Assembly (NCBI GenBank): GCA_028748685.1
Contig: JAJRDU010000137.1
Coordinates: 1-41,767, forward strand
Source of the DNA: Methylococcaceae bacterium
GTDB taxonomy: Bacteria > Pseudomonadota > Gammaproteobacteria > Methylococcales > Methylomonadaceae
Length of the DNA: 41,767 nucleotides
Direction: 5' to 3'
Shown here piece after piece: positions 17,205 through 41,767 of the stretch. Both the position numbers and the translations under genes were made by a program. Below the pieces are notes generated by a model. The model worked only from the letters and a program-made list of their open reading frames with translations. It did no database searches and was not told the origin of the DNA. Each line of letters starts with the position of its first letter. Position 1 is the first letter of the stretch.

Positions 17205-17720
17205 ATGGAGAAACAGCACAGTTTCACGCGTGAAGAGTTGTTAATGTCGGGCCGTGGCGAATTATATGGCCCAACAAACGCTCAGCTACCGCTCCCTAAC
17301 ATGCTGATGATGGATCGCATCATCCATATTTCCGACGAAGGCGGCAAGTATGGAAAGGGTGAAATTATTGCTGAACTCGACATCAAGCCGGACTTATGGT
17401 TTTTCGATTGCCATTTTCAAGGCGACCCGGTGATGCCTGGCTGCCTGGGGCTTGATGCGATGTGGCAACTGGTCGGTTTTTACCTGTGCTGGATGGGTGG
17501 CCCCGGTAAAGGCCGGGCACTTGGTTGCGGCGAAGTCAAATTTACCGGACAAGTATTGCCCACCGCTAAAAAAGTTACTTACAAAATCGACCTGAAACGC
17601 GTCATTCTGCGTAAACTGGTCATGGGTATCGCCGATGCCACCATGGAAGTGGACGGCAAGCAAATTTACGAGGCCACCGATCTGCGAGTCGGTCTGTTCA
17701 CTTCTACTCAGGATTTTTAA
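17205..17720 (+). CDS. fabA: 3-hydroxydecanoyl-ACP dehydratase/isomerase FabA
   Basis: FabA dehydrates 3-hydroxydecanoyl-ACP and isomerises trans-2- to cis-3-decenoyl-ACP, the branch point to unsaturated fatty acids. The protein has 171 residues, the normal length. Catalytic His70 ([13 protein letters not shown]) and Asp84 ([14 protein letters not shown]) are in the canonical positions, and the family blocks [14 protein letters not shown] and DLRVGLF are present. fabB starts 10 bases after the stop, so the pair is one operon, as in Pseudomonas. It acts in the cytosol as a homodimer. Confidence 0.97.
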
Positions 17721-17730
17721 GGTAAGCATC

Positions 17731-18951
17731 ATGAGACGCGCGGTTGTAACAGGTTTGGGGATTATTTCCAGCATAGGCAATAATCGAGACGAGGTGGTCG
17801 AATCACTGAAAACCGGCCGCTCCGGTATCGTTCATTCCGATGCCTATCGGGAACTAGGTTTCAGGAGCCACGTACACGGTCCCATCAATATCGACCTGGA
17901 CGAGGCCATCGATCGCAAGATCAAACGCTTCATGGGCGACGGCGCCGCTTACAACTATCTCGCCATGCAACAAGCCATCGCCGATTCCGGCCTGGCGGAC
18001 GATCAGGTTTCCAATTTTCGTACCGGCCTGGTGATGGGTTCCGGTGGTCCGTCGACATCGAATCTGGTCGATGCCGCCGACATTTTGCGTTCCAAGGGCG
18101 TGAAAAAAGTCGGCCCTTACATGGTGACGCGCGCCATGTCCAGCACCAACACCGCTTGCCTTGCCACGCCTTTCAAGATCAAGGGTGTCAACTACACCAT
18201 TAGCTCGGCCTGTGCCACCAGCGCTCACTGCATAGGGCATGCGATGGAACTGATCCAGCTCAATAAACAGGACGTGGTGTTCGCGGGCGGCGGCGAAGAA
18301 TTACATTGGACCATGTCGGTATTGTTCGACGCGATGGGCGCCTTATCATCGAAATACAACGAAACGCCGGCGACCGCTTCCAGACCTTATGACGCCAGTC
18401 GCGACGGCTTTGTGATTTCCGGAGGTGGTGGCGTACTGGTCATAGAAGAACTGGAACACGCCAAGGCGCGTGGCGCCAAAATTTATGCCGAACTGATCGG
18501 TTATGGCGCCACCTCGGACGGCTACGACATGGTGCAGCCTTCCGGCGAAGGCGCGGTGCGTTGTATGCAACAGGCCATGACCATGATAGACGGCAAGATC
18601 GACTACATCAACGCCCACGGCACCAGCACGCCGGTCGGCGATACTCGCGAACTGGAAGCCTTGCGCGCGGTATTCGGCAACGACAAGGTACCCCCGGTCA
18701 GTTCGACCAAATCCTTGACTGGCCATGCATTGGGCGCGGCGGGCGTCAACGAGGCGATCTACTCGCTGCTGATGATGGAGGAAAGCTTCCTCAGCGCCTC
18801 GGCCAATATCACCGAGCTCGATCCCGAAGCAGCGGGTATCCCCATCGTGCGCGAATACCAAGAAAACGTGACACTGAACACCGTGATGTCCAACAGCTTC
18901 GGTTTCGGCGGCACCAATGCCACGCTGATTTTCCAACGCTACGACGGCTAG
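17731..18951 (+). CDS. fabB: 3-oxoacyl-ACP synthase I FabB
   Basis: FabB elongates the cis-3-decenoyl-ACP produced by FabA, committing it to unsaturated fatty acids. The ATG at 17731 with AAGGTAA upstream gives 406 residues, exactly the E. coli length. The catalytic triad is visible: Cys161 in [15 protein letters not shown], His296 in [11 protein letters not shown] and His332 in [14 protein letters not shown], with the C-terminal GFGGTN loop. A longer in-frame extension back into fabA is spurious. The gene follows fabA directly and has no extra domains. Confidence 0.97.
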
Positions 18952-28884: not shown

Positions 28885-29796
28885 ATGAACAAGAAAATCA
28901 TACTGATCGGCGTAGGCGCCACCTTACTGGCGGGCTGCGCCACCAACCCCTACACCGGTCAATCCGAAATGGCCAACTGGGGCAAGGGCGCTGGTATCGG
29001 CGCGGCGGTGGGCGCCGGTGCCGGTACGCTATTCGGCGGCAACGACTTGAAAAATGCCGGCCTGGGCGCCTTGGCCGGCGCGGCGGTCGGCGCCGGTATC
29101 GGATATTATATGGATCAACAGCAGCAGGAAATGCAGCAATCGCTGCAGGGTACCGGCATCGAGGTGCAACGCACCGCCGACAATCAGTTGAATCTGAACA
29201 TGCCTAGCACCAGCAATGTCACTTTCGCCTTCGGCAAGGCCGATTTAACGTTTGAAGCACAAAGCGCGCTGGATTCGGTAGCCAAGGTACTGGTCAATTA
29301 TCCAGATTCCACGATCATGGTCAGCGGCCACACCGACGATGTCGGCTCGGACGCCGACAATCAGCGCTTATCCGAAGCGCGCGCCGCCAGTGTTGCCCGC
29401 TATCTGGCCCAACGCGGCGTCAATGCGATCCGTATTTCCCAGCAAGGCATGGGCGAAAGCTCACCTAAGGTACCAAATACCAGCGACGCCAATCGCGCCA
29501 TCAACCGCCGCGTGGAACTGGCTATCAAGGCCAACGAAAATGCCGGCGCCAACCAGCAGCAGCAAGGCGGTTACCCGCAACAGCAGGGTTATCCTCAACA
29601 GCAAGGCTATCCGCAGCAACAAGGTTACCCCCAACAACAGAGTTATCCGCAACAGCAAGGTTACCCTCAGCAGCAGGGCTACCCCCAACAACAGGGTTAT
29701 CCTCAACAACAGGGTTACCCACAGCAAACCTATCCTCAACAACAATATCAACAGCCGTATTACCAGCAGCAACAGGGCTATCCCTACAACCGGTAA
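28885..29796 (+). CDS. OmpA-family lipoprotein with glycine zipper and Pro-Gln repeat tail
   Basis: A 303-residue protein. The lipoprotein signal ends at Cys18 (LLAGC). A glycine-zipper segment (GAGIGAAVGAGAGTLFGG and GLGALAGAAVGAGIGYY, about 34-80) likely inserts in or lies on the membrane. The OmpA peptidoglycan-binding domain follows (about 110-220) with the NVTFAFGKADLT start, GHTDDVGSDADNQRLSEARA and NRRVEL. The last ~80 residues are about ten tandem GYPQQQ units plus degenerate ones. A peptidoglycan-anchoring role is expected from the family; the tail is unusual. AGAGGA precedes the ATG. It stands alone and ends in a strong terminator. Confidence 0.88.
   Translation: MNKKIILIGVGATLLAGCATNPYTGQSEMANWGKGAGIGAAVGAGAGTLFGGNDLKNAGLGALAGAAVGAGIGYYMDQQQQEMQQSLQGTGIEVQRTADNQLNLNMPSTSNVTFAFGKADLTFEAQSALDSVAKVLVNYPDSTIMVSGHTDDVGSDADNQRLSEARAASVARYLAQRGVNAIRISQQGMGESSPKVPNTSDANRAINRRVELAIKANENAGANQQQQGGYPQQQGYPQQQGYPQQQGYPQQQSYPQQQGYPQQQGYPQQQGYPQQQGYPQQTYPQQQYQQPYYQQQQGYPYNR
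29562..29795 (+). repeat. 18-base tandem repeat coding for GYPQQQ
   Basis: The 3' end of the OmpA-family gene has about ten consecutive 18-base units encoding (G/S)YPQQQ, with synonymous codon differences between units (CCG/CCC/CCT/CCA; CAA/CAG). The silent variation suggests that selection keeps the peptide while the DNA has drifted. Confidence 0.9.
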
Positions 29797-30093: not shown

Positions 30094-31302
30094 CTATCCA
30101 CTCATGTGCCTTCCAGCCAGCAGGCTTTTCTGCAAGGCATTGTTGTCGACCCATAAATCGCCGGACAAAAGCCTTGCGATCTGGTCTTTCAGCTCGGGAT
30201 CCCGGTCGGCTTCGAAGAACAGGTTGTGGACGATGTTGGATTGATAGAAGCGTTCGACGAACATGCGCATGGTGTTGAAGCCCAGCATATAATCGTCGTC
30301 GTCCACGGCATGCAGTTCGGGATCGGCTTCGCGGCCTTCCAGAAAGCCTTGATGAATGCGGTCGGCGACGCGGGCGGCGCTGGTGAAAGCCAGAAATACG
30401 CCGGAAGAAAACACCGGATCGAGGAAACCGGCGGCATCGCCGCAGCAGGCATAACGTAGGCCGTGGCGCCGTTGATTACTGTAGCTGAAATCCGCTTCGA
30501 CCCTCACCGGCGCAAATTGCTTGGCCCCATCCAGCAAGCGGTTGAGGATGGGCGAATCGGCCAGATAACGCCACAACAATTCCTCCACTTCGCAATCCTT
30601 GGGCCGCTCTTTCTGAACCACTAGGCCCACGCTCAAGCGCCTTCCGGACAAGGGGATGATCCAGATCCAGCCGATGTCCACCACCGGCACGTAGATACTG
30701 CCCGATTCGAACAAGGCGTCCGCCTCTTCGCTGGGTTGAATGTTCTCGTAGTGGGTATAGACCGCGAATTTCCCCAGGTTTTCGATGCGGGCTATGCTCC
30801 TGTCACTCTTACCCATAAGGGCGCTGCGGCCGGACGCATCCACCAGATAACGACAGCGGTATCGGCCTTTATCGGAGACGATGTCCACGCCCTCGGCCCG
30901 GCAATCCACTTCCAGGACTTTTTCTTCCTGGCGAGTTTCCACGCCGTGTTTGGCGGCGTTTTCGAACAATCTTTGGTCGAACGGCCCGCGTTCCAATTGG
31001 TAGGTCTTGCGGTAGACACTTAGTGGAAAATACATGCGCTGGTCGGTGTTTTCGTCGATGAACACCGCCCCGCTCTTGAACTGGTTGCCCTCGCTCCAAT
31101 CGATGCCCAATCGCTGTATCACCGGCTCGCTGAAAGGCAGCATGGATTCGCCGATGTGGAAGCGCGGATGTTTGTCTCGCTCCAGCAGCAAAATTTTGTG
31201 GCCGTGTTGCGCCAACAGGGTCGCCGCCGTGGACCCGGCGGGACCGCCGCCGACCACCACGACGTCGTAGTCAAAACCGTTTTGCATGTCTTCGTTCGTC
31301 AT
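30094..31302 (-). CDS. Flavin-dependent halogenase-like oxidoreductase
   Basis: A 402-residue FAD enzyme from ATG at 31302 (an earlier ATG at 31350 would overlap the upstream lipoprotein gene). The dinucleotide motif GGGPAG is at residues 18-23 and HIGESMLP at 49-56. Lys76 in QFKSGAVF aligns with the lysine that binds hypohalous acid in halogenases, and WIWIIP at 212-217 fits the WxWxIP motif. CGDAAGFLDPVFSSG is the FAD pyrophosphate region. A chlorinating or brominating role on a carrier-bound or free aromatic is plausible; related non-halogenating oxidases share parts of these motifs. It is the last gene of the minus-strand operon. Its neighbours resemble aryl polyene and xanthomonadin clusters, which also carry such enzymes. 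Confidence 0.75.
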   Translation of the reverse strand: MTNEDMQNGFDYDVVVVGGGPAGSTAATLLAQHGHKILLLERDKHPRFHIGESMLPFSEPVIQRLGIDWSEGNQFKSGAVFIDENTDQRMYFPLSVYRKTYQLERGPFDQRLFENAAKHGVETRQEEKVLEVDCRAEGVDIVSDKGRYRCRYLVDASGRSALMGKSDRSIARIENLGKFAVYTHYENIQPSEEADALFESGSIYVPVVDIGWIWIIPLSGRRLSVGLVVQKERPKDCEVEELLWRYLADSPILNRLLDGAKQFAPVRVEADFSYSNQRRHGLRYACCGDAAGFLDPVFSSGVFLAFTSAARVADRIHQGFLEGREADPELHAVDDDDYMLGFNTMRMFVERFYQSNIVHNLFFEADRDPELKDQIARLLSGDLWVDNNALQKSLLAGRHMSG

Positions 31303-31318
31303 TATTGATAGTCCGCGA

Positions 31319-31732
31319 TCATTTGTCCGGATAACCGTCTTCGGCCGCATTATAAACGGCGCGGAACACCGTCCAATGCACGCCGCCTATGCCAGCCCCG
31401 GTGTAAGTGATGCTGCCGACGCCCTTGTAGAATTCATCGGTCCGCATCGTATCAGGGCCAAAATAAAACGGAATAAAGGCTTTGCCGGTTTGGTACATTT
31501 TAGTATCGGTTGGTTGACCGAGGATCTCATGAACCTGACCTTGCGTCATTCCCAGTTTGATTTTTGCAAACGGGCTATTGGCGGGAAAGTTACCCTCAAT
31601 CCGTGACTCCGGCGGCACACTGGATTGGGATGATTGAGCCGAAGGCGGCGCGGCCGGCGTTTTATTGGTGGAAGCGCAACCCGCGATCAGCAGGCAGGCG
31701 GCTAAAAGCGCCAAAGTTTTAGTGTGTTTCAC
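31319..31732 (-). CDS. BamE/SmpA-like small lipoprotein in the biosynthetic locus
   Basis: A GTG at 31732 preceded by AAGGA gives 137 residues with a lipoprotein signal ending at Cys19 (LLIAGC). After a Ser/Pro/Gln-rich spacer there is a small SmpA/OmlA-like fold: FAKIKLGMTQGQVHEILGQPTDTK, the same pattern as in BamE, then FYFGPDTMRTDEFYKGVGSITYTGAG. It lies 16 bases before the FAD enzyme gene and about 100 bases after the MMPL gene. A second, diverged BamE-like lipoprotein beside an exporter and a LolA-like protein suggests a role in placing the product in the outer membrane; this is inference. Confidence 0.75.
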   Translation of the reverse strand: MKHTKTLALLAACLLIAGCASTNKTPAAPPSAQSSQSSVPPESRIEGNFPANSPFAKIKLGMTQGQVHEILGQPTDTKMYQTGKAFIPFYFGPDTMRTDEFYKGVGSITYTGAGIGGVHWTVFRAVYNAAEDGYPDK

Positions 31733-31834
31733 GGCTATCCTTTGAGGTTGGTTCGGAAGTTGACAATAGTAATTCAGTTGACGCAGTTTTTCACCCGCCC
31801 CGTGCATGAGTATAAGCGGGCCGCCCTCTTCCAT

Positions 31835-34171
31835 CTATGCGTTCACCCTACTAGGCTTGAGGCTGATTAACAGCGGACACAGCAGAAATCCCAGCGTGAC
31901 GCCCAGACTCACGGACAATGCCAGGATGGGCAAGGTCGGCGTCTTGCCCAAACCCAAAGCGCCGAAAGACGCCAGCGTGGTCAGCGTCGACGAAGCGATG
32001 GCGTGGTAGGTGACATCGGTATCCTGGCCGCGATTGTCCATGAAAAAGATGCCATAATCCACGCACAGCGACACCGACAACAACAGGCCTATCACATGCA
32101 GGAAGCTCACCTCCTCGCCCATCGCCACCCAAGCGGCGAAGATGAACAATACGGAGGCGAGCGAAGGCAGCAAGGTCAACAATACCTTGCTCATGGAGCG
32201 TTGCTGAAACCCAATGAACAATGCCATCACGGCGATCCCGATGCCCAGCATCTCCAGTGACCGGTCACGGTATTGCCGGGCCAAGTGATCCAGCTGATCT
32301 TTCTGGCTGAAGTAGCGGGTTCCTTCCAAGTCCTTAAGCCCTTCGATCAGCTTCGCGGGATCGTGCTCGCCCAGCCAGAGGGACAAGGCTACGCCGTGTT
32401 GACCCTCTATCATCTGTCCGGCCAGAATATGCCGCACCGGTGATCCCAGCACGGTAACGGAACGTAGCGGCTCGGTTGAAGGAGAAGGCAGATGACCCAA
32501 CTTGTCCAGCGACAAACCGGCCTTGTTCAGTGCCGAGCGCCAGGCATCCTGAAACTCCGAAGTCAAGGCATTGCTGTAAATTTTAGCGTTTTGAGTCTGC
32601 AAGTCCTCGGACACCAGCCAGGGAAACAAGCCGTGATATTCGCTGACGACACCGGCCCGTTTCAACTGCATCAGGCGCCGCTCGGCGGCTTCGGAACGCC
32701 GTAGCGCGGTTTCCATGTCGTCGGCTTGGATCAACACGAAGCGCCCCGGCTCGATACTGGTGAAATGGGCGCGGACAACCTCGTCCTGCCGTTTCATGGT
32801 ATCCATGTCCACCGCCAGCTTCTGCATGTCCTCCATCCAGCGAATGTGCGGCAGGGAAAACCCGGCCAGCAACACGGCGACCGCGAACAGGCTCAACAAG
32901 GCCTTACGGTGGCGCCCGCAAAAATCCACCCAGGCGGCAATGCCCGGCAAATGGGCGACATGAAGGGATGACTGGGCGAGCAATGCGGGCAAGACCCAGC
33001 GAGTCAGCCCCAGGGATGCGACAACGCTGGCAAAGGCAAACACGGCGATTTGCTCGAAGCCCGGAAAGCCCGTCATCCCCAAGGCGCCGTAACCAATGAC
33101 GGTGGTCAAGCCGCCCAGGGCCAGACTGGGCCACAGCAAGCGCACGGCGGATAATGGCGTATGGCGGTGTTTGGCGGAATGCACCATCACATGAATCGGA
33201 TAATCGGAAGAGATGCCGATCAAGCTGGCGCCCAGCGCCAGGGTCAGACTGTGAACATGAGGAAAAACCAAAGCCGTCACTAAGGTGCCAGCCACAAAGG
33301 AAGCGGCCTGCACCATCATTACCCAGTGCAGGGCGGAAAAGGAATGGAACAGCAACAAAAACACCAAGGCGACCGCCACGCTGGAGACGGTCGATACCAG
33401 GGCAACGTCCTGACTAATCTCGCCATGGGCCGCCGTGCTAAAAACCGGCACCCCGGTCATGGACAACTTGAAACGGCCACCGGCGGCCGCATTCAACGCA
33501 TCGAAACGGGCGCGAATGTCATTCTGCAATCGCGATTGAGCATCGGAATCCAAAGCCGGCGGACGGCTTTGCAAAATCAGTGCGCCGCCTTCCGCATTCA
33601 ACTGGGATTGATGCTCGAACTGGCCCTGCATATCCTTGAAGCCGTTCAGGGACAATAGTAAGGGATCCTGCTTGGCAATAGCCTTGACGAAACCGCCCTG
33701 AGGCGAAAGCAACGTCTGCTTGAGCCCTTCTGCCCGAGCATCCAAGCCGGCTGGATCGAACAGTTGGCGTCCATCTTCCTCCGGGTTCAGGCTAAACAAA
33801 CGGGCATGGTAAGGCGCATAGGACTGGATGGCGGCTAGCCAGTCGCGGGGCGGCTCGTTGGCCGGCCAGACCTGTTCCACGCCGTCCAGTCCGGCCAGTT
33901 GGCTAACCAGTCGCGAACTGAACTCGGCCATGGAAAGCGAGGTATCCCGCCGATCAACTCGATCATGCGCCAGATTTTTCTCCACCACCAACATATAACG
34001 CCGCGACAACTCGCCCGATTGCAACAACCCGGACAGCAGCCTTGAATCCTCGTCGTCGGTGGCGGTAAAAAAGGCGTTAAGGTCGGTTTCGACCCGGATT
34101 TGCCAAACCGTCAGCACCGACAACAAGGGCAGCAACAATATGAATAAGCGTTTCCGCCAAACGAAAGACAC
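31835..34171 (-). CDS. MMPL/RND-family exporter
   Basis: A 778-residue transporter with two homologous halves. Each half starts with one membrane helix and a large periplasmic loop (about 35-250 and 430-620), then five helices. Conserved acidic positions in the membrane appear in GISSDYPIHV and SLCVDYGIFFMDN, the likely proton path. Members of this group (COG4258) are found in aryl polyene clusters, where they are thought to move the lipid-linked pigment towards the outer membrane. The start is a GTG at 34171 with GGAG upstream, 3 bases after the LolA-like stop. It is in the operon between the LolA-like and BamE-like genes. Confidence 0.88.
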   Translation of the reverse strand: MSFVWRKRLFILLLPLLSVLTVWQIRVETDLNAFFTATDDEDSRLLSGLLQSGELSRRYMLVVEKNLAHDRVDRRDTSLSMAEFSSRLVSQLAGLDGVEQVWPANEPPRDWLAAIQSYAPYHARLFSLNPEEDGRQLFDPAGLDARAEGLKQTLLSPQGGFVKAIAKQDPLLLSLNGFKDMQGQFEHQSQLNAEGGALILQSRPPALDSDAQSRLQNDIRARFDALNAAAGGRFKLSMTGVPVFSTAAHGEISQDVALVSTVSSVAVALVFLLLFHSFSALHWVMMVQAASFVAGTLVTALVFPHVHSLTLALGASLIGISSDYPIHVMVHSAKHRHTPLSAVRLLWPSLALGGLTTVIGYGALGMTGFPGFEQIAVFAFASVVASLGLTRWVLPALLAQSSLHVAHLPGIAAWVDFCGRHRKALLSLFAVAVLLAGFSLPHIRWMEDMQKLAVDMDTMKRQDEVVRAHFTSIEPGRFVLIQADDMETALRRSEAAERRLMQLKRAGVVSEYHGLFPWLVSEDLQTQNAKIYSNALTSEFQDAWRSALNKAGLSLDKLGHLPSPSTEPLRSVTVLGSPVRHILAGQMIEGQHGVALSLWLGEHDPAKLIEGLKDLEGTRYFSQKDQLDHLARQYRDRSLEMLGIGIAVMALFIGFQQRSMSKVLLTLLPSLASVLFIFAAWVAMGEEVSFLHVIGLLLSVSLCVDYGIFFMDNRGQDTDVTYHAIASSTLTTLASFGALGLGKTPTLPILALSVSLGVTLGFLLCPLLISLKPSRVNA

Positions 34172-34174
34172 CCA

Positions 34175-34801
34175 TCAATCTCCGATGGCTTCTTGCAACA
34201 AGCGCGAAATGGAATAGTTAGCTGCCTGATCTTCCGACGCTTTTACCATCTTGTATTCGGTGGATTCGCCGTCGGACTGGCTAATCAAAATATTCCGCTG
34301 GTTATCGTCATCGTCTCCGGAAATTTTGAGGGATGGCCCATCCTCATGGCCTTGCCCCGGCTTGGGCGTCACGCGCAAGGTCCAGCGCTGGCCCTTTTTT
34401 TCGGACACAAAATCATGAGTCGGCTGCAATGCCTGCGACTGGCCCTGCAAGATGGAACGCAACACCGTAATCTGCTCCGCGCCCGGCCCGCCGGCGCCCA
34501 ATGGCGCGCTATGCCTTTGCTTTTGTTCCGGGTCCCAGTAATACATGCGCTGGTCGGTCAGCGCCATGATGATTCGTTTGGGCTTGAGTTGCAGCTTGAT
34601 CAGGATGCCGTATGCGCCGGACAGCATGTACCCCTCGCCATGCCATGGAGAAGAGGCCAATTCCAGGGTGCGGGTTTCCTGGTAACGGAATTTGGCCTCG
34701 CCGCTATTTTGAATCCGAGCCAGTAATTCCGCCACCCCGCTGTTGTCGGCAAATCCGGCAAAAGGCAGAAACGCCAGCAGCAGACACAGGGCACGCCTCA
34801 C
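34175..34801 (-). CDS. LolA-like periplasmic carrier
   Basis: A 208-residue exported protein (signal peptide about 1-18, FAGFA) with the LolA/LolB-type half-barrel: FRYQETRTLELASSPWHGEGYMLSGAYGILIKLQLKPKRIIMALTDQRMYYW. Proteins like this accompany MMPL exporters in aryl polyene clusters and are thought to carry a hydrophobic product across the periplasm. The GTG start overlaps the stop of the upstream gene by four bases (GTGA), indicating coupling. True LolA for lipoproteins is expected elsewhere in the genome. Confidence 0.82.
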   Translation of the reverse strand: MRRALCLLLAFLPFAGFADNSGVAELLARIQNSGEAKFRYQETRTLELASSPWHGEGYMLSGAYGILIKLQLKPKRIIMALTDQRMYYWDPEQKQRHSAPLGAGGPGAEQITVLRSILQGQSQALQPTHDFVSEKKGQRWTLRVTPKPGQGHEDGPSLKISGDDDDNQRNILISQSDGESTEYKMVKASEDQAANYSISRLLQEAIGD

Positions 34802-35415
34802 GAGCTGATACCCTTGAATACCTTATGCCCGTTCATCGCCATGAATTTGAAAGTCTCCATCGCCGGCGGAATCTCCATATCCGGAAAGCGCTTATGCCGA
34901 TAAAACCATTCCCCTACCCCCAGCAAGCCCATCAACAGGTAGACGACCAAGCCGGTATAGACGGCCCATGCCTGTTGCCCGGCCATGGCCGGCAATACGG
35001 CGCAGACCACCACGTTGACGGCGAAAAACAATGTCCAGGCCCAGGTCACCTCGCGCAGATATTCGGCGATGCCGGGTTGGAAATCCGGATATTGCAGACG
35101 CACCAAGCGTTCGCACAAGGAAGGCGGCGACCACAGGGTATGGCCGAACAAGACCGTCAGCCATAGATAGGCGAAAGATGGCACCAGCCAGATGAAATAG
35201 GCATTGGCGTAATAGGCGCCGGCCAGCAATAAGGCAGTCAACAGCAACGAACCCAGCCGCAAGGCCCATTTCTTAAATTGGAATCCTCGCCACAAGGTCA
35301 GCGCGGCAAATACCACCAACTCCAGGCTGGCAAAGCCTCGCTTGGCCAGATAAGCACTGAGGAATGGGTAGGCGATTAGCAGCAGAGTAATGCCTATTGC
35401 CTTGACTAGACCCAT
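34798..35415 (-). CDS. COG4648-type integral membrane protein of aryl-polyene-like clusters
   Basis: A 205-residue protein with about five hydrophobic helices (roughly 5-22, 27-42, 50-70, 75-92 and 125-165) and a conserved-looking ending EWFYRHKRFPDMEIPPAMETFKFM. It matches the class of small membrane proteins regularly found between the acyl carrier protein and LolA-like genes in aryl polyene clusters. The biochemical role is unknown. It starts 2 bases after the carrier-protein stop and overlaps the LolA-like gene by four bases, so all are tightly coupled. Confidence 0.78.
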   Translation of the reverse strand: MGLVKAIGITLLLIAYPFLSAYLAKRGFASLELVVFAALTLWRGFQFKKWALRLGSLLLTALLLAGAYYANAYFIWLVPSFAYLWLTVLFGHTLWSPPSLCERLVRLQYPDFQPGIAEYLREVTWAWTLFFAVNVVVCAVLPAMAGQQAWAVYTGLVVYLLMGLLGVGEWFYRHKRFPDMEIPPAMETFKFMAMNGHKVFKGISS

Positions 35416-35417
35416 GT

Positions 35418-35681
35418 TTAACGGGTGCGATGCTCGGCGACGAATTCCGCCAATGAGCGTAGTGATGCAAAAATCTGATTGTTGCGTTCGTCGCCGGAAG
35501 TGATTTTGACGCCGTATTGCCTATCCAGCATCACGCCTATCTCCAGCGCGTCAATGGAATCCAGGCCTAGCCCGCCGTCGAACAATGACGCGTCGGGAGA
35601 CACGTCGTCTGGCATAATGTCTTCCAGGCGCAAACCCTCGATGAGCATGGTTTTCAATTGGCTGATCAAGTCATCTGACAT
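35418..35681 (-). CDS. Acyl carrier protein (first carrier, minus-strand operon)
   Basis: An 87-residue carrier protein with the phosphopantetheine site Ser42 in GGLGLDSIDALEIGVML. The GLDSID context is that of acyl carriers in aryl polyene and lipid clusters. It is the first gene of the minus-strand operon and has its own good promoter. It likely holds the growing chain; the ketosynthases that would extend it are not inside this window. Confidence 0.9.
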   Translation of the reverse strand: MSDDLISQLKTMLIEGLRLEDIMPDDVSPDASLFDGGLGLDSIDALEIGVMLDRQYGVKITSGDERNNQIFASLRSLAEFVAEHRTR

Positions 35682-35711
35682 GGCGGGTTAAATTCCTATA
35701 AGAAAACCCAA

Positions 35712-35740
35712 ATTCTACACAATATCCCCGATTGGTTCAA
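35712..35740 (-). promoter_or_regulatory. Promoter of the minus-strand biosynthetic operon
   Basis: TTGAAC (35735-35740) and TAGAAT (35712-35717) are separated by 17 bases on the minus strand, about 31 bases before the carrier-protein ATG. It is a strong sigma-70 match. Confidence 0.75.
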
Positions 35741-35897
35741 AAACGCTTGGTCTGAGCGGCTGGGAGTGCCAAAATTACCGAAACTCGAGGCATTTACCCT
35801 TCCAACCGTTACCTGCATTCTCGGTTAGCTTTCAAAATCATGCGGATTTCTGGTTCCGGCAACCGTTTCCAAAAGGCCGGCCCGACGACGGCAAGCC

Positions 35898-35924
35898 TTG
35901 TGCAGGTTTAGGACTGTGTATAAT
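35898..35924 (+). promoter_or_regulatory. Candidate promoter of the plus-strand biosynthetic operon
   Basis: TATAAT at 35919-35924 has TTGTGC (35898-35903) upstream with a short 15-base spacer. The start codon of the second carrier protein is 84 bases downstream. Confidence 0.45.
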
Positions 35925-35950
35925 TTGCCGCGATGCGCTTATAGTCAGCA

Positions 35951-35973
35951 TAGGGCGAATGAATTCGCCGCTA
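35951..35973. repeat. Small palindromic repeat (REP-like)
   Basis: GGCGAA-TGAA-TTCGCC forms a 6-bp stem, extended by TAG/CTA with one bulge. Palindromes of this kind are dispersed in many bacterial genomes. It lies in the leader of the plus-strand operon. Confidence 0.5.
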
Positions 35974-36007
35974 CAGAACATTTATCACCTTATACCAACT
36001 TGCCCCC

Positions 36008-36241
36008 ATGAAGGAAAAACTCAAAACGTTCATCTTCTCCGAACTCATCTACCATGAAGACCCCTCGTCTTTCGGCGATGACGACGATCTGCTGGAGGCC
36101 GGCTTAGACAGCATGGGCATCATGCGTCTGATCATGTTTGCCGAAAAGGAATTCGGCGTAACCTTGCCGGATACCGAAATCGAACCGGACAACGTCCAGA
36201 GCTTGAACGCGCTGGAAAGATGGATCAAACAAGCGGCATGA
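36008..36241 (+). CDS. Second carrier protein (peptidyl/aryl-type)
   Basis: A 77-residue stand-alone carrier protein with phosphopantetheine site Ser35 in LLEAGLDSMGIMRLIMFAEKEFGVTLP. It is more like the free carrier proteins that pair with stand-alone adenylation enzymes (PltL/RedO or DltC type) than like fatty-acid ACP. Its stop overlaps the next start as ATGA. With the adenylation enzyme and the acyl-CoA dehydrogenase of the same operon it could hold an aminoacyl group, for example proline, during oxidation. Confidence 0.85.
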   Translation: MKEKLKTFIFSELIYHEDPSSFGDDDDLLEAGLDSMGIMRLIMFAEKEFGVTLPDTEIEPDNVQSLNALERWIKQAA

Positions 36242-37524
36242 ACGCGGCTTTTCCCTTCAACCCGGCGGACTATTTCACCTATGTCCTCGACCAGGAAATC
36301 CGCGACGCGGGGATGCCGGGCGGCTATTGCGGCTTGGCCCTGCAACTGGGCGCCGACCCCGACCTGGACAGCCTGCAGCGACGGCTGGACCTATTGGTGG
36401 AACGCTTCCCCAAGGCTTCGGCGCGCATAGAGCAACAAGGCAAACGTTATGCCTGGATACCGACCGGCAATCCCATCCTGTTGGAATGCCATCAAGGCCA
36501 TCCGGATAAAAACAGCGAGGAAGAAACCCGGCGCATCCTGCTGGAGATCTTCAATCGCCCGGAATCCTTGCCACTGACGCTGCACTGGATCGCGACCAGG
36601 CCCGGCGGCACCTTATTGTTGAACTGGAACCATCCGCTGCTGGACGCCCGTGGCGCCAAGATATTGCTGGACTTCCTCGCCTCGGATAAACCCGAAAGTT
36701 TCAAGGAATCCCCTTCCTTGATCAACGCCAAGCTGGCCCAGTGGAGCTTCTGGAAAAAGCTGCAATTGCTGTTCAAGGCCAAGCGCCACAACGACGAAGC
36801 CAACAGCCTGGATAGCTGTTTGCCCACCCAGACCGAGCAAGGTGCGCAAACCCTGAATCTGAAAGTTCGGCGGTTTAATACGGAAGAATCCAAACACATC
36901 GCCGCGTTGGCACGGAAATACACCGGCCTGGCCGGGCGCACCCTGTATTATCTGGGTTGCTTCATGCGGGCCATGGAACAGGTCGGGCCGCCCGCCGCCA
37001 AGGCCGGTTACTGCGTACCCTATGCCTTCAACCTGCGCCGCCAGAACGCGCCCACACCGGTATTTGGCAATCACGTCGGCTGCCTGTTCGCCCGCGCCAC
37101 CCGCGCTCAAGTCAAGAAACGGCACGGATTGTTCGAACATTTGCTGAGCCAACATACCAAGGTAGTGCGGGAGGAACTTGACCTGGCCTATCTGCCGCTG
37201 ATGTGGTTGGGCCAATGGCTGGCGCCGGCCCGCTACGCCCAACTCCTGCGTAAGCAACACAGCGGCGGCGAACTCAGCTCGCTATGGTTTTCCGACATCG
37301 GCGACCTGTCCTGGGGGCAGAAAGGCTTCCTCGGCGCGCCGGTCACCAACCTAACCATGATGTGCTGGATGCCCCTGCCGCCGGGCCTGGCCTTGCTGGT
37401 CGGACAACTGGATGGGAGATTGACCTTGTCCTATAGCTATTTGTCGCCTGCCGTGGACGAGGTTTGGCTAGACAAGGTCATGGCGGGCATGGATGCCGAA
37501 TTATTGGAATTTGGCGAAAGTTGA
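36238..37524 (+). CDS. Condensation-domain-like acyltransferase
   Basis: A 428-residue stand-alone protein. The segment LLLNWNHPLLDARGAKIL contains His132 and Asp136, matching the second His and the Asp of the HHxxxDG signature of NRPS condensation domains and related acyltransferases; the first His is Asn. The C-terminal half shows SSLWFSDIGDLS and LALLVGQLDGRLTLSYSYLS, like the second lobe of this fold. It could transfer the carrier-bound acyl group to another carrier or to an alcohol or amine. The start ATG at 36238 overlaps the carrier-protein stop by four bases. Substrate is unknown. Confidence 0.7.
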   Translation: MNAAFPFNPADYFTYVLDQEIRDAGMPGGYCGLALQLGADPDLDSLQRRLDLLVERFPKASARIEQQGKRYAWIPTGNPILLECHQGHPDKNSEEETRRILLEIFNRPESLPLTLHWIATRPGGTLLLNWNHPLLDARGAKILLDFLASDKPESFKESPSLINAKLAQWSFWKKLQLLFKAKRHNDEANSLDSCLPTQTEQGAQTLNLKVRRFNTEESKHIAALARKYTGLAGRTLYYLGCFMRAMEQVGPPAAKAGYCVPYAFNLRRQNAPTPVFGNHVGCLFARATRAQVKKRHGLFEHLLSQHTKVVREELDLAYLPLMWLGQWLAPARYAQLLRKQHSGGELSSLWFSDIGDLSWGQKGFLGAPVTNLTMMCWMPLPPGLALLVGQLDGRLTLSYSYLSPAVDEVWLDKVMAGMDAELLEFGES

Positions 37525-37527
37525 GCG

Positions 37528-38955
37528 ATGCTGCTTGAACTCTTTCTGCTGCAATGCAGACAACGACCCGATTCATTGGCCTTGTGGGAGCAAGACCGTC
37601 ATCTGACCTACGGCAAGCTAATACGGCAAGCGCATACCGTCGCGGCCAGCTTGCAGGCAAGAAACATCCAGCCCGGCCAGCCTGTCGCCATTCATCTGGA
37701 TCGTGGCATCGACGCCGCCATCGCAATATTCGGCGCATTGCTGGCAGGCGCCTGCTACGTGCCACTGGACTTGAAAAACCCGCCGGCGAGACTAGCCTTC
37801 ATCGTCGCCGACGCTCAAGTCGGCGTAGTGTTGGGTACTGCCAAAGCCCCCGCCTGGCTGGATACCGACCTGTGGCTAGACATCGACAGCTGTCCAGAAG
37901 CGATACCACAACCAATAGAAACGTCCAGCGAATCCTTGGCCGCCATCCTCTATACATCGGGTTCCACCGGCCAGCCGCGCGGCGTCGCGCTAAGCCACGG
38001 CGCCATCGCCGCTTTCGCGAACTGGGCAAGCGGATTGGTAGATTTAAGTCCTGACGACCGCATCGCCAGCAGTACACCCTTTTTCTTCGACCTATCCACC
38101 TTCGATCTGTACGGTGTTTTAGGCGCGGGCGCCAGCCTGCATTTCATTCCTTCTACGCTGACCACGGCCCCCGCCCGCTTAAGCGCCTGGCTCCAGGAAC
38201 AAGCCATCACCGGCTGGTACACCGTGCCATTGCTATTGGCTTTCCTGGCCTATAAGGGCAATCTGGCGCAAACGCCTTTGAACAACCTGCGTTTCCTGCT
38301 GTTCGCCGGCGAAGTATTCCCGACCCCGGCCTTGATGGACCTGGCCGCAAGCCTGCCGCGAACGGCGCTGTACAATTTGTTCGGCCCCACCGAAACCAAC
38401 GTCTGCTGTTACTGGCAGGTACAGCGCGAACGCCTGGTCGCGGATCAAGCCATTCCCATAGGCCTGCCCGCCGCGGGTTGCGAGCTACATATCGAACCCG
38501 AGACAAGCGAACTCTGGGTACGCGGACCGACGCTGGCCAACGGCTACTGGAGCGAAGGCGGTTTGCGCCCTTTTCAAAATGATCAAGGTTGGTATGCCAC
38601 CGGCGACCGCGTCAGCCTGGAGAACGGCGAATACCGCTTCCACGGCCGCCTGGGCCGCATGCTGAAATGCTCCGGCTATCGGGTCGAACCGGCCGAGATC
38701 GAGGCTGCCGTCAACGCGCTGCCCGGCGTCATGGACTGCGCGGTAGTCGGCATGGACGACCCTACCGCCGGCCAGCGTCCGGCCTTGGCTTTAGTGTTTG
38801 AGCCTGAAATGACTATCGCCGAAATCCGCAAGGTTTTGAGCAAACAATTGCCGCCCTACATGCAACCTAGCCGTTATCTGGTGTTGGATGAATTGCCGAG
38901 ATTGGCTAATGGAAAGTTGGATTATCAGAGGTTGCGAACGATACTGGAAGGCTAA
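37528..38955 (+). CDS. Stand-alone amino-acid/aryl adenylation enzyme
   Basis: A 475-residue AMP-forming enzyme that activates a carboxylic acid and loads it on a carrier protein. Motifs in order are YTSGSTGQPRG (142-152), FFFDLSTFDLYGVLGAG, LFGPTETNVCCYW, YATGDRV, GRMLKCSGYRVEPAEIE and the catalytic Lys463 in LANGKLDY. The FDLS(T/V)FD-LY stretch is shared with the free-standing prolyl-loading enzymes of pyrrole pathways (PltF/RedM group), but DltA-like and other enzymes also have it, so the substrate is inferred from the acyl-CoA dehydrogenase neighbour. It starts 3 bases after the condensation-like gene. Confidence 0.85.
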   Translation: MLLELFLLQCRQRPDSLALWEQDRHLTYGKLIRQAHTVAASLQARNIQPGQPVAIHLDRGIDAAIAIFGALLAGACYVPLDLKNPPARLAFIVADAQVGVVLGTAKAPAWLDTDLWLDIDSCPEAIPQPIETSSESLAAILYTSGSTGQPRGVALSHGAIAAFANWASGLVDLSPDDRIASSTPFFFDLSTFDLYGVLGAGASLHFIPSTLTTAPARLSAWLQEQAITGWYTVPLLLAFLAYKGNLAQTPLNNLRFLLFAGEVFPTPALMDLAASLPRTALYNLFGPTETNVCCYWQVQRERLVADQAIPIGLPAAGCELHIEPETSELWVRGPTLANGYWSEGGLRPFQNDQGWYATGDRVSLENGEYRFHGRLGRMLKCSGYRVEPAEIEAAVNALPGVMDCAVVGMDDPTAGQRPALALVFEPEMTIAEIRKVLSKQLPPYMQPSRYLVLDELPRLANGKLDYQRLRTILEG

Positions 38956-39026
38956 ATACAGCCGGAATACGCTGGTTGCATTCATTGCTTGCTTTAGCGT
39001 AATCGGCGATGATGTGCGGAACCAAA

Positions 39027-39032
39027 TATAAT
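39027..39032 (+). promoter_or_regulatory. TATAAT box before the unknown membrane protein gene
   Basis: A consensus TATAAT lies 19 bases before the ATG at 39052. No clear -35 is seen. It suggests that the inserted gene has its own promoter. Confidence 0.4.
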
Positions 39033-39051
39033 CGCTTTTTAGGTTGCAGCC

Positions 39052-39486
39052 ATGGAAACCGCCATTGTCACCTCTCTGATCGCTTTGCTCGGCAGTTTCT
39101 TGGTTGCTGTACTGACATATTGGTCAACCAAGCACAGAGAGCGAGAGGCCGCGTGGAGAAAGGAGAAGTTGGCGTACTACATGGCATTCATTGAGAGTCT
39201 GAGCGGTATTGTCGATGGCGACGCTTCGCCCGAAGGACACAAGGCATACGCAAAGACAAGCAACAACTTACAGCTCTTCGCGCCGCAGGCCGTGATCTTG
39301 GCTCTCAATGAATACAGGAAGGAGAATAGCATTTCAAATGTCAATCGCACCCCGGAAGAACATGATCGATTGCTTGCCAAGCTTTTGCTCGCGATACGCC
39401 GCGACATTGGCGTATCACCACAGGATGAGCCCGATACTTTCAGCCCAATTCTCTGGGCATCAGGTACGAACAGAAATAAAACGTGA
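39052..39486 (+). CDS. Unknown single-helix membrane protein
   Basis: A 144-residue protein not recognised. One N-terminal membrane helix (about 5-25, VTSLIALLGSFLVAVLTYW) is followed by a basic, heptad-like stretch (TKHREREAAWRKEKLAYYMAF) and a mostly helical cytosolic part. Codon use and lower apparent G+C differ from the biosynthetic genes around it. It has its own TATAAT and sits with hicBA between the adenylation gene and the acyl-CoA dehydrogenase gene, so it is probably an insertion and not part of the pathway. Confidence 0.7.
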   Translation: METAIVTSLIALLGSFLVAVLTYWSTKHREREAAWRKEKLAYYMAFIESLSGIVDGDASPEGHKAYAKTSNNLQLFAPQAVILALNEYRKENSISNVNRTPEEHDRLLAKLLLAIRRDIGVSPQDEPDTFSPILWASGTNRNKT

Positions 39487-39610
39487 CACAGTGTCGAAAT
39501 CGGCGCGCAAGGGGAATCCATCAGACACTTTTCTGTAGTTTAGGATTTACATTTAGCAGGATTACCGCATCCTCCACACCTTTTTCAGACAATACCTTTG
39601 GTGCTATATC

Positions 39611-39832
39611 ATGCAAAGACAACTAACAGCTATTATCGAGCGCGAAGGAAACGGCTATGTATCCCTTTGCCCGGAACTTGACATTGCCAGTCAAGGGGAC
39701 ACTGTTCATGAAGCCCGAGAGAATCTTCGCGAGGCGCTCGAATTGTTCTTTGAAACGGCGTCGGCTACCGAGATCAATCAGCGATCTCACGAAGAGGTGT
39801 ACATCACACGTCTGGAGATTGCCGTTGGGTAA
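39611..39832 (+). CDS. hicB: HicB-family antitoxin
   Basis: A 73-residue protein with the HicB half-RNase-H fold: LTAIIEREGNGYVSLCPELDIASQGDTVHEARENLREALELFFE. It should bind and neutralise the HicA toxin. There is no DNA-binding tail as in longer HicB proteins, so autoregulation may need another part. The last bases overlap the start of hicA, giving the order antitoxin then toxin. Together they form an addiction module inside the biosynthetic operon. Confidence 0.88.
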   Translation: MQRQLTAIIEREGNGYVSLCPELDIASQGDTVHEARENLREALELFFETASATEINQRSHEEVYITRLEIAVG

Positions 39833-40046
39833 GCTGCGTATTCTGTCTGACCGGGAGGTTTGCGCCATTCTGGCCTGCCATGGATTCATTCAGGTTCGCC
39901 AACGGGGCAGCCACATGGTTATGCAAAAAAGACTTGCCGACTCGACCATCACTATCCCCGTACCCGATCACGCTGAAATCCGCATCGGCACGCTGCAATC
40001 CATTATCCGCCAATCCGGTATTGCCAAACACGAGTTTGAATCGTGA
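39825..40046 (+). CDS. hicA: HicA-family mRNA interferase toxin
   Basis: A 73-residue protein starting at a TTG (39825) that has GGAG seven bases upstream and overlaps the hicB end by 8 bases. The double-stranded RNA-binding-like HicA fold is visible: REVCAILACHGFIQVRQRGSHMVMQ with catalytic His30 in GSH, then IPVPDHAEIRIGTLQSIIRQSGI. HicA cleaves mRNA and blocks translation when free of HicB. No ATG gives this frame a sensible start. Intact motifs suggest an active toxin. Confidence 0.88.
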   Translation: MGKLRILSDREVCAILACHGFIQVRQRGSHMVMQKRLADSTITIPVPDHAEIRIGTLQSIIRQSGIAKHEFES

Positions 40047-40150
40047 TCGATACGGGTAAGAGAAACGCGCCAGCCCTTTCTACGCTAAATATAAGTAAAC
40101 CGACCTCATTTTGGCGGATCGCCTGACGGCGTCCATCGTAACAATCAACC

Positions 40151-41272
40151 ATGAATAAAACCCACCATATTTCCGACTTAACTCCTAATGCTGGTCCAAC
40201 GGACGAAACCCAAATTCTGGCTCGTTTCCGAGCCGTCGCCGACCAAGGAGTGTTGCGCCATGCCCTCCCCCAACGTTTCGGTGGTTTCGAGGACGACTTT
40301 GCCGCCCTGGTTAAAACGCATCGCCGCCTTGGCGAGGCCAGCCGCGATCCCGGCCTGTTATTGATGGTCAACGCCCATCTTTGGGGATCAATCTTTCCGA
40401 TTCTGCTATACGGCAACGACCGGCAACGAGAAACTTTTCTGCCCAAACTAATATCCGGGCAATGGCTAGGCGGCCACGCCATAACCGAGCCGGGTTGCGG
40501 TTCCGACGTGCAGGCGATGACCTGCCGGGCCGAACAGGCCGGCGAAGGCTTCGTGTTAACCGGCGAAAAACGTTATATCACCAATGTACCGCTGGCCGAC
40601 TGGCTGGTGGTTTACACCAAACTGGACGGCAAGATCACGGCTTTCCTGGTCTCCCTCGAAGATCAGGGGTGTACGTTTAGCAACGAAGGCAGCTTGAATG
40701 CCTGCCGGGGCAGCGCCACCGGCAGCGTGAGGCTGGAAAATTGCCGGCTCGACGCCGACCGTTTGCTGGGCAAAGCGGGTGCCGGAACTCAGATGATCCA
40801 AAAAGCCTTGGAATACGAGCGGGCCTTCGTGTTTGCCGGCATCGCCGGCATCATGGAATGGCAGCTAAATGAAGTCGTCCGCCATAGCCGGGAAAGACGC
40901 TCCGGCGGCGTCCATCTGGGCCGTCACCAGGCCATTAGTCATAGGATCGCCGACATGAAATTGCGGCTGGACACCATAGACCTGTGGCTTAACGAATGCG
41001 CAAGGCTATGCGACGCCGGGCAAAGGCTAACCCTGGCTTCGGCGCAAACCAAACTCTATGCCGCCGAGGCCTTCTTGCAGTCCAGCCTGGATGCGGTGCA
41101 GATCATGGGTGCCTCGGGCTTGGAATCGGGCGGTGCCGTGGCCGAATTGGTACAGGATGCGCTGGCCGGGCGGCTGTTTTCCGGCAGTTCGGAAGTACAG
41201 AAAAACTTGATCGCCGCGCTACTCGGGACCGGCGACGCCTATCGGGGTAACGCTCAAGCCAATCAATCATGA
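40151..41272 (+). CDS. Acyl-CoA dehydrogenase-family oxidase, likely acting on a carrier-bound substrate
   Basis: A 373-residue flavoenzyme with the acyl-CoA dehydrogenase fold: LPQRFGGFEDD, GHAITEPGCGSDVQAMTCRAEQAGEGFVLTGEKRYITN (FAD/substrate loop) and the C-terminal QIMGASGLESGG and GRLFSGSSEVQKNLIA. The usual IYEGTNE catalytic Glu is replaced (LFSGSSE), while LEYERAF supplies a Glu at the place used by isovaleryl-CoA dehydrogenase and by prolyl-carrier oxidases (PltE/RedW). With the adenylation enzyme and carrier protein of the same strand this suggests four-electron oxidation of prolyl-S-carrier to pyrrolyl-S-carrier; that is inference. It overlaps the next gene as ATGA. Confidence 0.85.
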   Translation: MNKTHHISDLTPNAGPTDETQILARFRAVADQGVLRHALPQRFGGFEDDFAALVKTHRRLGEASRDPGLLLMVNAHLWGSIFPILLYGNDRQRETFLPKLISGQWLGGHAITEPGCGSDVQAMTCRAEQAGEGFVLTGEKRYITNVPLADWLVVYTKLDGKITAFLVSLEDQGCTFSNEGSLNACRGSATGSVRLENCRLDADRLLGKAGAGTQMIQKALEYERAFVFAGIAGIMEWQLNEVVRHSRERRSGGVHLGRHQAISHRIADMKLRLDTIDLWLNECARLCDAGQRLTLASAQTKLYAAEAFLQSSLDAVQIMGASGLESGGAVAELVQDALAGRLFSGSSEVQKNLIAALLGTGDAYRGNAQANQS

Positions 41273-41767
41273 ATTTCGCCGATTACCGAAACTGGCGGCC
41301 GACGCCGTTGATGAAGGCGTCGTGCTTGCTGACAATAGCCGCTCCGCTAGCCATCGCGATCCGACCCGACATCTGGCCTTGGGCCTTGGCCGTCGTCGTT
41401 GCCGATAATTTAGTGCTGACCTTCGCCGGGCTTTGGCCACGCTGCTCCTGGGTCGGATCTAACTGGACTTCGCTTCCGCCGGCCTCCGCCAAGCGAGGCG
41501 AAGTCGCCATCACCATCGACGATGGCCCCGATCCAGAAGTGACGCCCGCCGTGCTCGACCTGCTGGATCAGCATAGCGCCAAGGCCACCTTCTTCTGCAT
41601 AGCCGAAAAGGCCCAACGTTACCCGGACTTGTGCCGTGACATCGTCAACCGTGGCCATGCGGTGGAAAACCACAGCATGCACCACAAATACCACTTGCCG
41701 TTTATGTTGCTCGGCGGCTGGTTTGCCGAACTAAATGCCGCTCAGAATGCTCTGACCGTCATTACCG
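41269..41767 (+). CDS. NodB-type polysaccharide deacetylase (partial, runs off the right edge)
   Basis: The ATG at 41269 overlaps the acyl-CoA dehydrogenase stop (ATGA). The visible 166 residues show one or two N-terminal hydrophobic helices (about 15-55) and then the NodB domain: EVAITIDDGPDPEVTPAVLDLLDQHSAKATFFCIA with the metal-binding Asp pair, and HAVENHSMHHKYHLP with the His motif. Such enzymes remove N- or O-acyl groups. Similar genes occur beside flexirubin and aryl polyene clusters. The tight coupling shows that it belongs to the plus-strand operon. The C-terminus is outside the window. Confidence 0.85.
   Translation, partial: MNFADYRNWRPTPLMKASCLLTIAAPLAIAIRPDIWPWALAVVVADNLVLTFAGLWPRCSWVGSNWTSLPPASAKRGEVAITIDDGPDPEVTPAVLDLLDQHSAKATFFCIAEKAQRYPDLCRDIVNRGHAVENHSMHHKYHLPFMLLGGWFAELNAAQNALTVIT

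Follow-up and report, generated by a model that had tools for sequence, protein, structure and literature searches.

A probable proline-to-pyrrole gene cassette beside aryl-polyene-type export genes in type I methanotrophs

The pyrrole units of pyoluteorin and of the prodiginines are made by small enzyme sets, PltF-PltL-PltE and PigI-PigG-PigA, respectively, each with a stand-alone proline adenylation enzyme, a carrier protein and an acyl-CoA-dehydrogenase-type enzyme. The described members of the aryl polyene (APE) family bear, to our knowledge, aryl heads, and we know of no activation of proline in the flexirubin pathway. Here, we analysed a stretch of 41767 bases from a Methylococcaceae bacterium (assembly GCA_028748685.1, contig JAJRDU010000137.1), hereafter the window, in which a gene set that, judging from the encoded proteins, probably converts proline to pyrrole lies beside APE-type export genes, as it does in other methanotrophs; the arrangement suggests a lipid with a pyrrole unit, perhaps halogenated, that has not been described. 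We put at roughly 70% the probability that this pyrrole-forming cassette is built into an aryl-polyene-type (type II polyketide synthase (PKS)-like) cluster.

The window is an entire contig (C137 of genome G000, a bin 77% complete with 4.1% contamination) that ends at position 41767, and its extension beyond this point was made via the loci of relatives; in what follows, G codes designate genomes, L codes the loci that we fetched, and g1 the genus of the window's genome, which also includes a genome whose C-domain coordinates equal those of Methylomonas sp. LW13. Like the Escherichia coli APE clusters (apeA-R), whose gene roles, those of ApeL and ApeM included, we took from PMC8253772, the locus encodes an acyl carrier protein (ACP), putative COG4648-type and LolA-type proteins and a resistance-nodulation-division (RND) exporter, and the loci of its relatives further share the ketosynthase (KS)/chain-length factor (CLF) pair, ApeP, ApeI, GT2, an acyltransferase, a thioesterase and an AMP ligase. 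Unlike the E. coli clusters, the methanotroph loci add the proline-to-pyrrole cassette, a stand-alone condensation (C) domain, a second KS/CLF pair and a deacetylase, and as many as three halogenase-family flavoenzymes occur per genome, G149 having all of them. Pyoluteorin and prodiginine assembly relies on type I PKS or PigH-type enzymes, whereas in the methanotrophs the cassette comes with a C domain and with genes of a type II polyene pathway. In the flexirubin pathway of Chitinophaga pinensis, as described in PMC3992019, the APE carboxylic acid is esterified further and the starter is supplied via a tyrosine ammonia lyase. A proline-to-pyrrole cassette in APE-type methanotroph clusters was not found described among the papers listed in our searches of the open-licence literature.

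The adenylation enzyme is predicted from its sequence to be specific for L-proline, as the first-pass annotation, made from the letters of the window alone, had supposed. Its pocket code (Table 1) was read at the GrsA positions, set from motif anchors, and its LFYLALVC portion matches at 8/8 positions the consensus L(L/F)YLALVC of stand-alone proline enzymes given in PMC3874040. Seven code variants occur among 47 adenylation sequences, 25 of which carry the code of the window, with D235, L236, F239, Y278, A301, V330 and K517 invariant throughout. The best stand-alone solved relatives are the L-proline ligases 6o6e (243 bits) and 7thn (239 bits), ranked below LgrA chains, whose scores sum two domains, and another large synthetase, 8xjz. 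The neighbouring carrier protein, ACP2, keeps the serine of a GLDS-type motif, as do all 59 sequences aligned (one reads GLNS).

The dehydrogenase is best matched in NCBIfam by RedW and PigA, with the next family at 157 bits, a lead of at least 93 bits, and its best match in the PDB is 4irn (218 bits), the entry of a prolyl-ACP dehydrogenase. The usual C-terminal catalytic glutamate is missing, with FSG at the site (FSG or YSG stands there in both 4irn and 6cxt), and the alternative glutamate, within YERAF, is present in 41/41 aligned dehydrogenases, so that both observations of the first-pass annotation hold. We do not take the alternative glutamate as proof of a prolyl type, since isovaleryl-CoA dehydrogenase has the same residue and the feature is not diagnostic alone. 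In a tree of 30 rows, which includes one named prolyl enzyme (4irn), the methanotroph dehydrogenases group with 4irn, 6cxt and enzymes adjoining adenylation genes in two other genomes, and a 100/100 branch separates this group from isovaleryl-CoA dehydrogenase; the tree gave long-branch warnings, its midpoint root serves for drawing only, and the order inside the larger group is unsettled. Family scores, best structure and tree grouping thus agree with a prolyl-type dehydrogenase, and neither this protein nor the adenylation enzyme clusters away from the prolyl enzymes.

The carrier protein, the free adenylation enzyme and the dehydrogenase had all been recognised on the plus strand at first pass, in a gene list that was incomplete; a whole gene between the first two, at 36220-37524, had been overlooked. 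Its product has the fold of the nonribosomal peptide synthetase condensation-domain superfamily and accompanies ACP2 in 58/58 loci, and among its relatives by fold are two proteins that form esters, PapA5 (1q9j) and wax ester synthase. In the active-site motif, the second histidine, the aspartate and the alanine are invariant in 41/41 sequences, and the position of the first histidine is variable. AzeD of Pseudomonas aeruginosa (8s6l), called a dehydratase in its entry, belongs to the azetidomonamide cluster, with a gene context unlike that of the window. Because the C domain is retained while the loading enzymes change, in a paralogous ACP-C pair served by a different ligase, the data suggest that it takes the acyl group bound to ACP2 as its donor.

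We scanned the genome collection with two short C-domain patterns and obtained 58 loci, of which 52 are titled as type I methanotrophs, with proteobacterium, Gammaproteobacteria or Thiotrichaceae in the titles of the remaining six; cultured strains among them are Methylomonas sp. LW13 and Methylotuvimicrobium buryatense 5G. This recurrence excludes a chance arrangement. All four cassette genes are on 41/58 stretches (with C domains down to 35% identity), and many of the other stretches are cut by contig ends. In seven loci, ACP2-C lacks an adjacent adenylation gene despite DNA beyond it (a count that leaves aside L086 and L089, which stop at the C gene), and the cognate adenylation gene is elsewhere in five of these seven genomes. 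Order-wide, 91 of 311 genomes hold the C domain at E <1e-40, and in five others a distant paralogue alone occurs. Of 321 genomes drawn from across the class, 13 matched at E 1e-50 or better, and among these a dehydrogenase of more than 50% identity was confined to G000, G233 and G374, the last of which is placed outside the order (gene positions on its contig are those of locus L103).

The link of this cassette to APE genes is clearest in the 19 close loci (C domain at least 65% identical), where the exporter gene is found in 16, KS_a in 16, and FADox, the halogenase-family flavoenzyme gene of the window, in 13, one of the loci (L071) being just 3.1 kb long. The 39 remoter loci (35-43% identity) have the exporter gene in 8 cases and a KS gene on 19 stretches, often in divergent orientation to the cassette. 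Overall, a KS gene is on 35/58 fetched stretches and at least one APE-type reference gene on 44/58, and the two operons of the window, expected at first pass to travel together, do co-occur in relatives. Cassette and ApeP co-occur as well, ApeP being present in 61/91 cassette genomes versus 69/220 others. The same annotation had advised looking past the window for ketosynthase, dehydratase and glycosyl- or acyltransferase genes, and all are present in relatives: the close ones hold KS, CLF, ApeP and ApeI, none of which is on the window's contig, and several carry GT2, acyltransferase, thioesterase, ApeI, ApeP, KSR and KS_b downstream. In M. buryatense 5G, the cassette adjoins FADb-KS_b-ApeP-KSR, and some 60 kb separate it from the lyase, ligase, GT2 and acyltransferase genes.

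The first-pass statement that the window shows no ketosynthase is right for a polyene-type KS pair at the locus and wrong for the contig as a whole, which has a housekeeping FabB at 17635-18951. In relatives, the ketosynthase/chain-length pair sits between the exporter and lipoprotein genes; in the window, the corresponding junction is clean, and a KS_a-type gene was not found among the six PF00109 matches of G000. Either the window's strain has lost the KS pair next to the exporter or the assembly left it out. The genome does have ApeP on C46 and C79 and KSR on C322. Of the minus-strand genes named at first pass, the FAD enzyme, the BamE-like lipoprotein, the MMPL-like protein and the carrier protein stand; the two genes labelled LolA and COG4648 are present, and their names, which rest on length and order, found no support in Pfam or NCBIfam. 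With no match for the ApeG- and ApeL-position proteins in these two databases, the fit to the APE exporter set rests on gene order and on the MMPL-type protein.

Several observations weigh against a prolyl cassette integrated in an APE cluster. Every NCBIfam match of the dehydrogenase is below its curated cut-off (RedW 266 against 650 bits, PigA 250 against 500), and so are those of the adenylation domain among the 25 of 105 matches listed. The second PDB match of the dehydrogenase, 6cxt (186 bits), is named a butyryl-CoA dehydrogenase and falls on the same side of the tree, and another L-prolyl dehydrogenase, 5zw0, scores 150 bits, less than three isovaleryl-CoA dehydrogenases (155-163). As for the pocket, 22/47 codes, in six other variants, deviate from that of the window, at positions 299, 322 or 331 only. 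The C-domain protein has NHxxxDA in place of HHxxxDG, and its best structural match is an entry called a dehydratase. The cognate adenylation gene was not found in two of the seven genomes checked, and L081 has an adenylation gene with no dehydrogenase within the 8.5 kb after it. Finally, 14/58 stretches, several of them short, lack any APE-type reference gene, and ApeP goes undetected in 30/91 cassette genomes; the association counts ignore shared ancestry.

The flavoenzyme FADox had been called halogenase-like, and this holds insofar as the catalytic lysine and WxWxIP of FADH2 halogenases are kept in 14/14 covering rows (two truncated rows were set aside); it is not specifically PltA-like. 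In the single-sequence search, 5buk, which we take to be Mpy16, and PltA (5dbj) ranked first. We rejected this ranking as proof of a pyrrole halogenase: in the profile search, 8zop, 5buk, 3e1t and 5dbj score 194-201 bits and, together with ChlB4, all fall within 11 bits (190-201). Since several FADH2-halogenase types are equally near, a pyrrole is at most a candidate substrate of FADox. Two paralogues share much of the motif, FADb with lysine and WxWxIP in 12/12 and FADc with the lysine in 12/12 and the final proline in just 3/12. FADb is closest to 3nix (473 bits versus 192 for the next), an entry named merely flavoprotein/dehydrogenase. An even chance seems right to us that the flavoenzyme is no halogenase and acts on the polyene as an oxygenase or dehydrogenase: its similarity is not PltA-specific, the neighbouring APE flavoprotein is nearest 3nix, and the paralogues keep the lysine and most of the motif, while the intact motif of FADox and best solved matches that are mostly entries named halogenases speak for halogenation. 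FADb was also considered as a cassette-specific gene and discarded as such; within g1, it is in 20/20 cassette genomes versus 0/17 others, yet it occurs in lyase-type genomes elsewhere in the family. A single TAA was counted within the FADb match in many genomes (G006, G011, G013, G023, G024, G025, G028, G031, G036 and others).

In the pathway that we propose, the adenylation enzyme would activate L-proline and load it on ACP2, and the dehydrogenase, going by its family and by the adenylation pocket, would oxidise prolyl-ACP2 to pyrrole-2-carboxyl-ACP2, whose ring may be halogenated by the halogenase-family flavoenzyme, an uncertain step. The condensation-fold protein would then move the ACP2-bound acyl group onto an acceptor of the polyene pathway, either to prime the neighbouring ketosynthase/chain-length pair or to cap the polyene or lipid once it is complete, and the ApeG/L/M-like proteins, by analogy with the APE family, would carry the product to the outer membrane.

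The distribution of aromatic ammonia lyases bears on the choice between starter and cap. Cassettes were split into type 1, which includes that of the window, and type 2 at E 1e-170, a threshold chosen after the values had been seen. Among the 311 genomes of the order, 130 have ApeP and 87 a lyase; within the ApeP genomes, type-2 and paralogue-only ones left out, the lyase is in 3/38 with a type-1 cassette versus 53/65 without a cassette (Fisher 7e-14, kinship ignored), and in g1, in 2/19 versus 9/9. This exclusion is consistent with a pyrrole starter without demonstrating one. PF00221 matches occur in four type-1 genomes (G000, G030, G040 and G176); those of G040 and G176, at 655.6 and 651.7 bits well above the roughly 510-563 of most other full-length matches, are perhaps true histidine lyases. 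In G000, two ammonia lyases 94% identical and two ApeP genes are spread over C77, C315, C46 and C79; the bin perhaps mixes strains.

Priming of the KS/CLF pair by pyrrolyl-ACP2, replacing the coumaroyl or hydroxybenzoyl head and giving a pyrrolyl polyene, is a tentative reading that we hold at less than even odds. The rarity of the lyase in type-1 genomes argues for it, as does the second KS/CLF pair by the cassette in relatives (KS_a in the close loci). We nevertheless do not take lyase exclusion to prove that the starter was swapped: the type-1 clusters examined still have an ApeH-like ligase, and the aligned ligases keep their nucleotide-binding motif (one is cut by the fetched stretch), so that the pathway may go on using an aryl starter. 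The type-2 cassette, moreover, coexists with the lyase in 20/23 ApeP genomes, the window lacks its own KS pair, and the transfers from pyrrolyl-peptidyl carrier protein to KS that we know of require no C domain. Lyase absence may not concern pyrrole at all, given that, according to PMC8253772, the predicted starter of the E. coli APE is 4-hydroxybenzoate supplied by UbiC. Such points, namely the retained ligase and the lyase beside type 2, favour instead a transfer in which the C-fold protein takes pyrrole-2-carboxyl (or, with the alternative cassette, a different acyl group) off ACP2 and attaches it to a hydroxyl or amine on a polyene lipid that keeps its aryl head; the constant pairing with ACP2, even where a paralogous pair has other loading enzymes, and the ester-forming fold relatives fit this transfer, and the altered HHxxxDG and the near mutual exclusion of type-1 cassette and lyase do not, which leaves it possible at somewhat under an even chance. 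It is improbable, in our estimate, that the cassette is a mere neighbour of the APE cluster and makes a separate small molecule, such as a prolyl or pyrroline lipid; the cassette genomes without detected ApeP and L112, which has no other reference gene within 10 kb, would fit, and the KS or exporter genes on 35/58 fetched stretches, divergent families included, count against it.

Distant C-domain paralogues (22-27% identity) were found in G276, G227, G129, G127 and G055. In G276, the paralogue is adjoined by a carrier protein, a halogenase-family protein, a PF12831 flavin oxidoreductase and an acyl ligase; similar open frames are beside it in G227 and G129, and G127 is cut by the contig end. 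The linked ligase has histidine in place of Asp235, the amino-acid-binding aspartate, in four aligned sequences. This alternative cassette lies at L128:6762-12254, the only locus where its gene families were tested, and similar ones are in L130, L131 and partly L127, with APE genes beside it in L128 and L131.

Table 1. Genes and sites of the cassette and export region (positions in the window)
Feature	Position	Strand	Evidence
FADox, FADH2-halogenase-family flavoprotein	30094..31350	-	Trp_halogenase PF04820, 90.9 bits
BamE-like lipoprotein	31319..31834	-	PF04355, 24.1 bits (cut-off 23.2)
Site of relatives' ketosynthase/chain-length-factor pair, absent in window	31834..31835	.	Comparison with relatives
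MMPL/RND-type exporter, ApeM-like	31835..34171	-	PF03176, 18.7 bits (below cut-off 20.5); HpnN, 55 bits (below cut-off)
LolA-like protein, ApeL position	34175..34801	-	Gene order conserved; no family match
COG4648-type membrane protein, ApeG position	34798..35415	-	Gene order conserved; no family match
ACP1, acyl carrier protein, ApeE-like	35418..35681	-	NF006617, 99.6 bits (above cut-off 70)
ACP2, putative carrier protein dedicated to the prolyl/pyrrolyl unit	36008..36241	+	PF00550
Stand-alone C-domain-fold protein, 434 aa	36220..37524	+	C-domain fold; no family match
Stand-alone adenylation (A) enzyme, predicted L-proline	37528..38955	+	Pocket code DLFYLALVCK
144-aa orphan and HicB/HicA-like pair, insertion within operon	39052..40046	+	No NCBIfam match
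Putative prolyl-carrier dehydrogenase, acyl-CoA dehydrogenase family	40151..41272	+	RedW 266, PigA 250 bits; 4irn best; tree
Polysaccharide-deacetylase-like gene, truncated by contig end	41269..41767	+	G017 orthologue matches PF01522, 105 bits

The BamE-like lipoprotein probably starts at a GTG some 100 bases into the called frame. The insertion site between the adenylation and dehydrogenase genes holds different, unrelated genes among relatives, with a type I restriction-modification cassette in G009 (L038:11502-19651) and other orphans elsewhere. Outside the locus, positions 28885-29796 encode a YiaD-family OmpA-like lipoprotein with a long QQGYP-type repeat at its C-terminus.

Taken at its broadest, the comparison would mean that a new class of polyene pigments or lipids, located in the outer membrane and bearing a (halogenated) pyrrole as head or cap, is produced in type I methanotrophs by a type II PKS with an interchangeable starter or cap cassette (proline/pyrrole, ammonia-lyase/aryl, or acid-ligase plus flavin-oxidoreductase on a paralogous carrier-C pair), a proposal whose chances we rate as only a little short of even. 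If true, methane oxidisers would have a pyrrole variant largely to themselves, which would add a chemical class, offer an exchangeable cassette to engineering and perhaps serve as a lipid biomarker.

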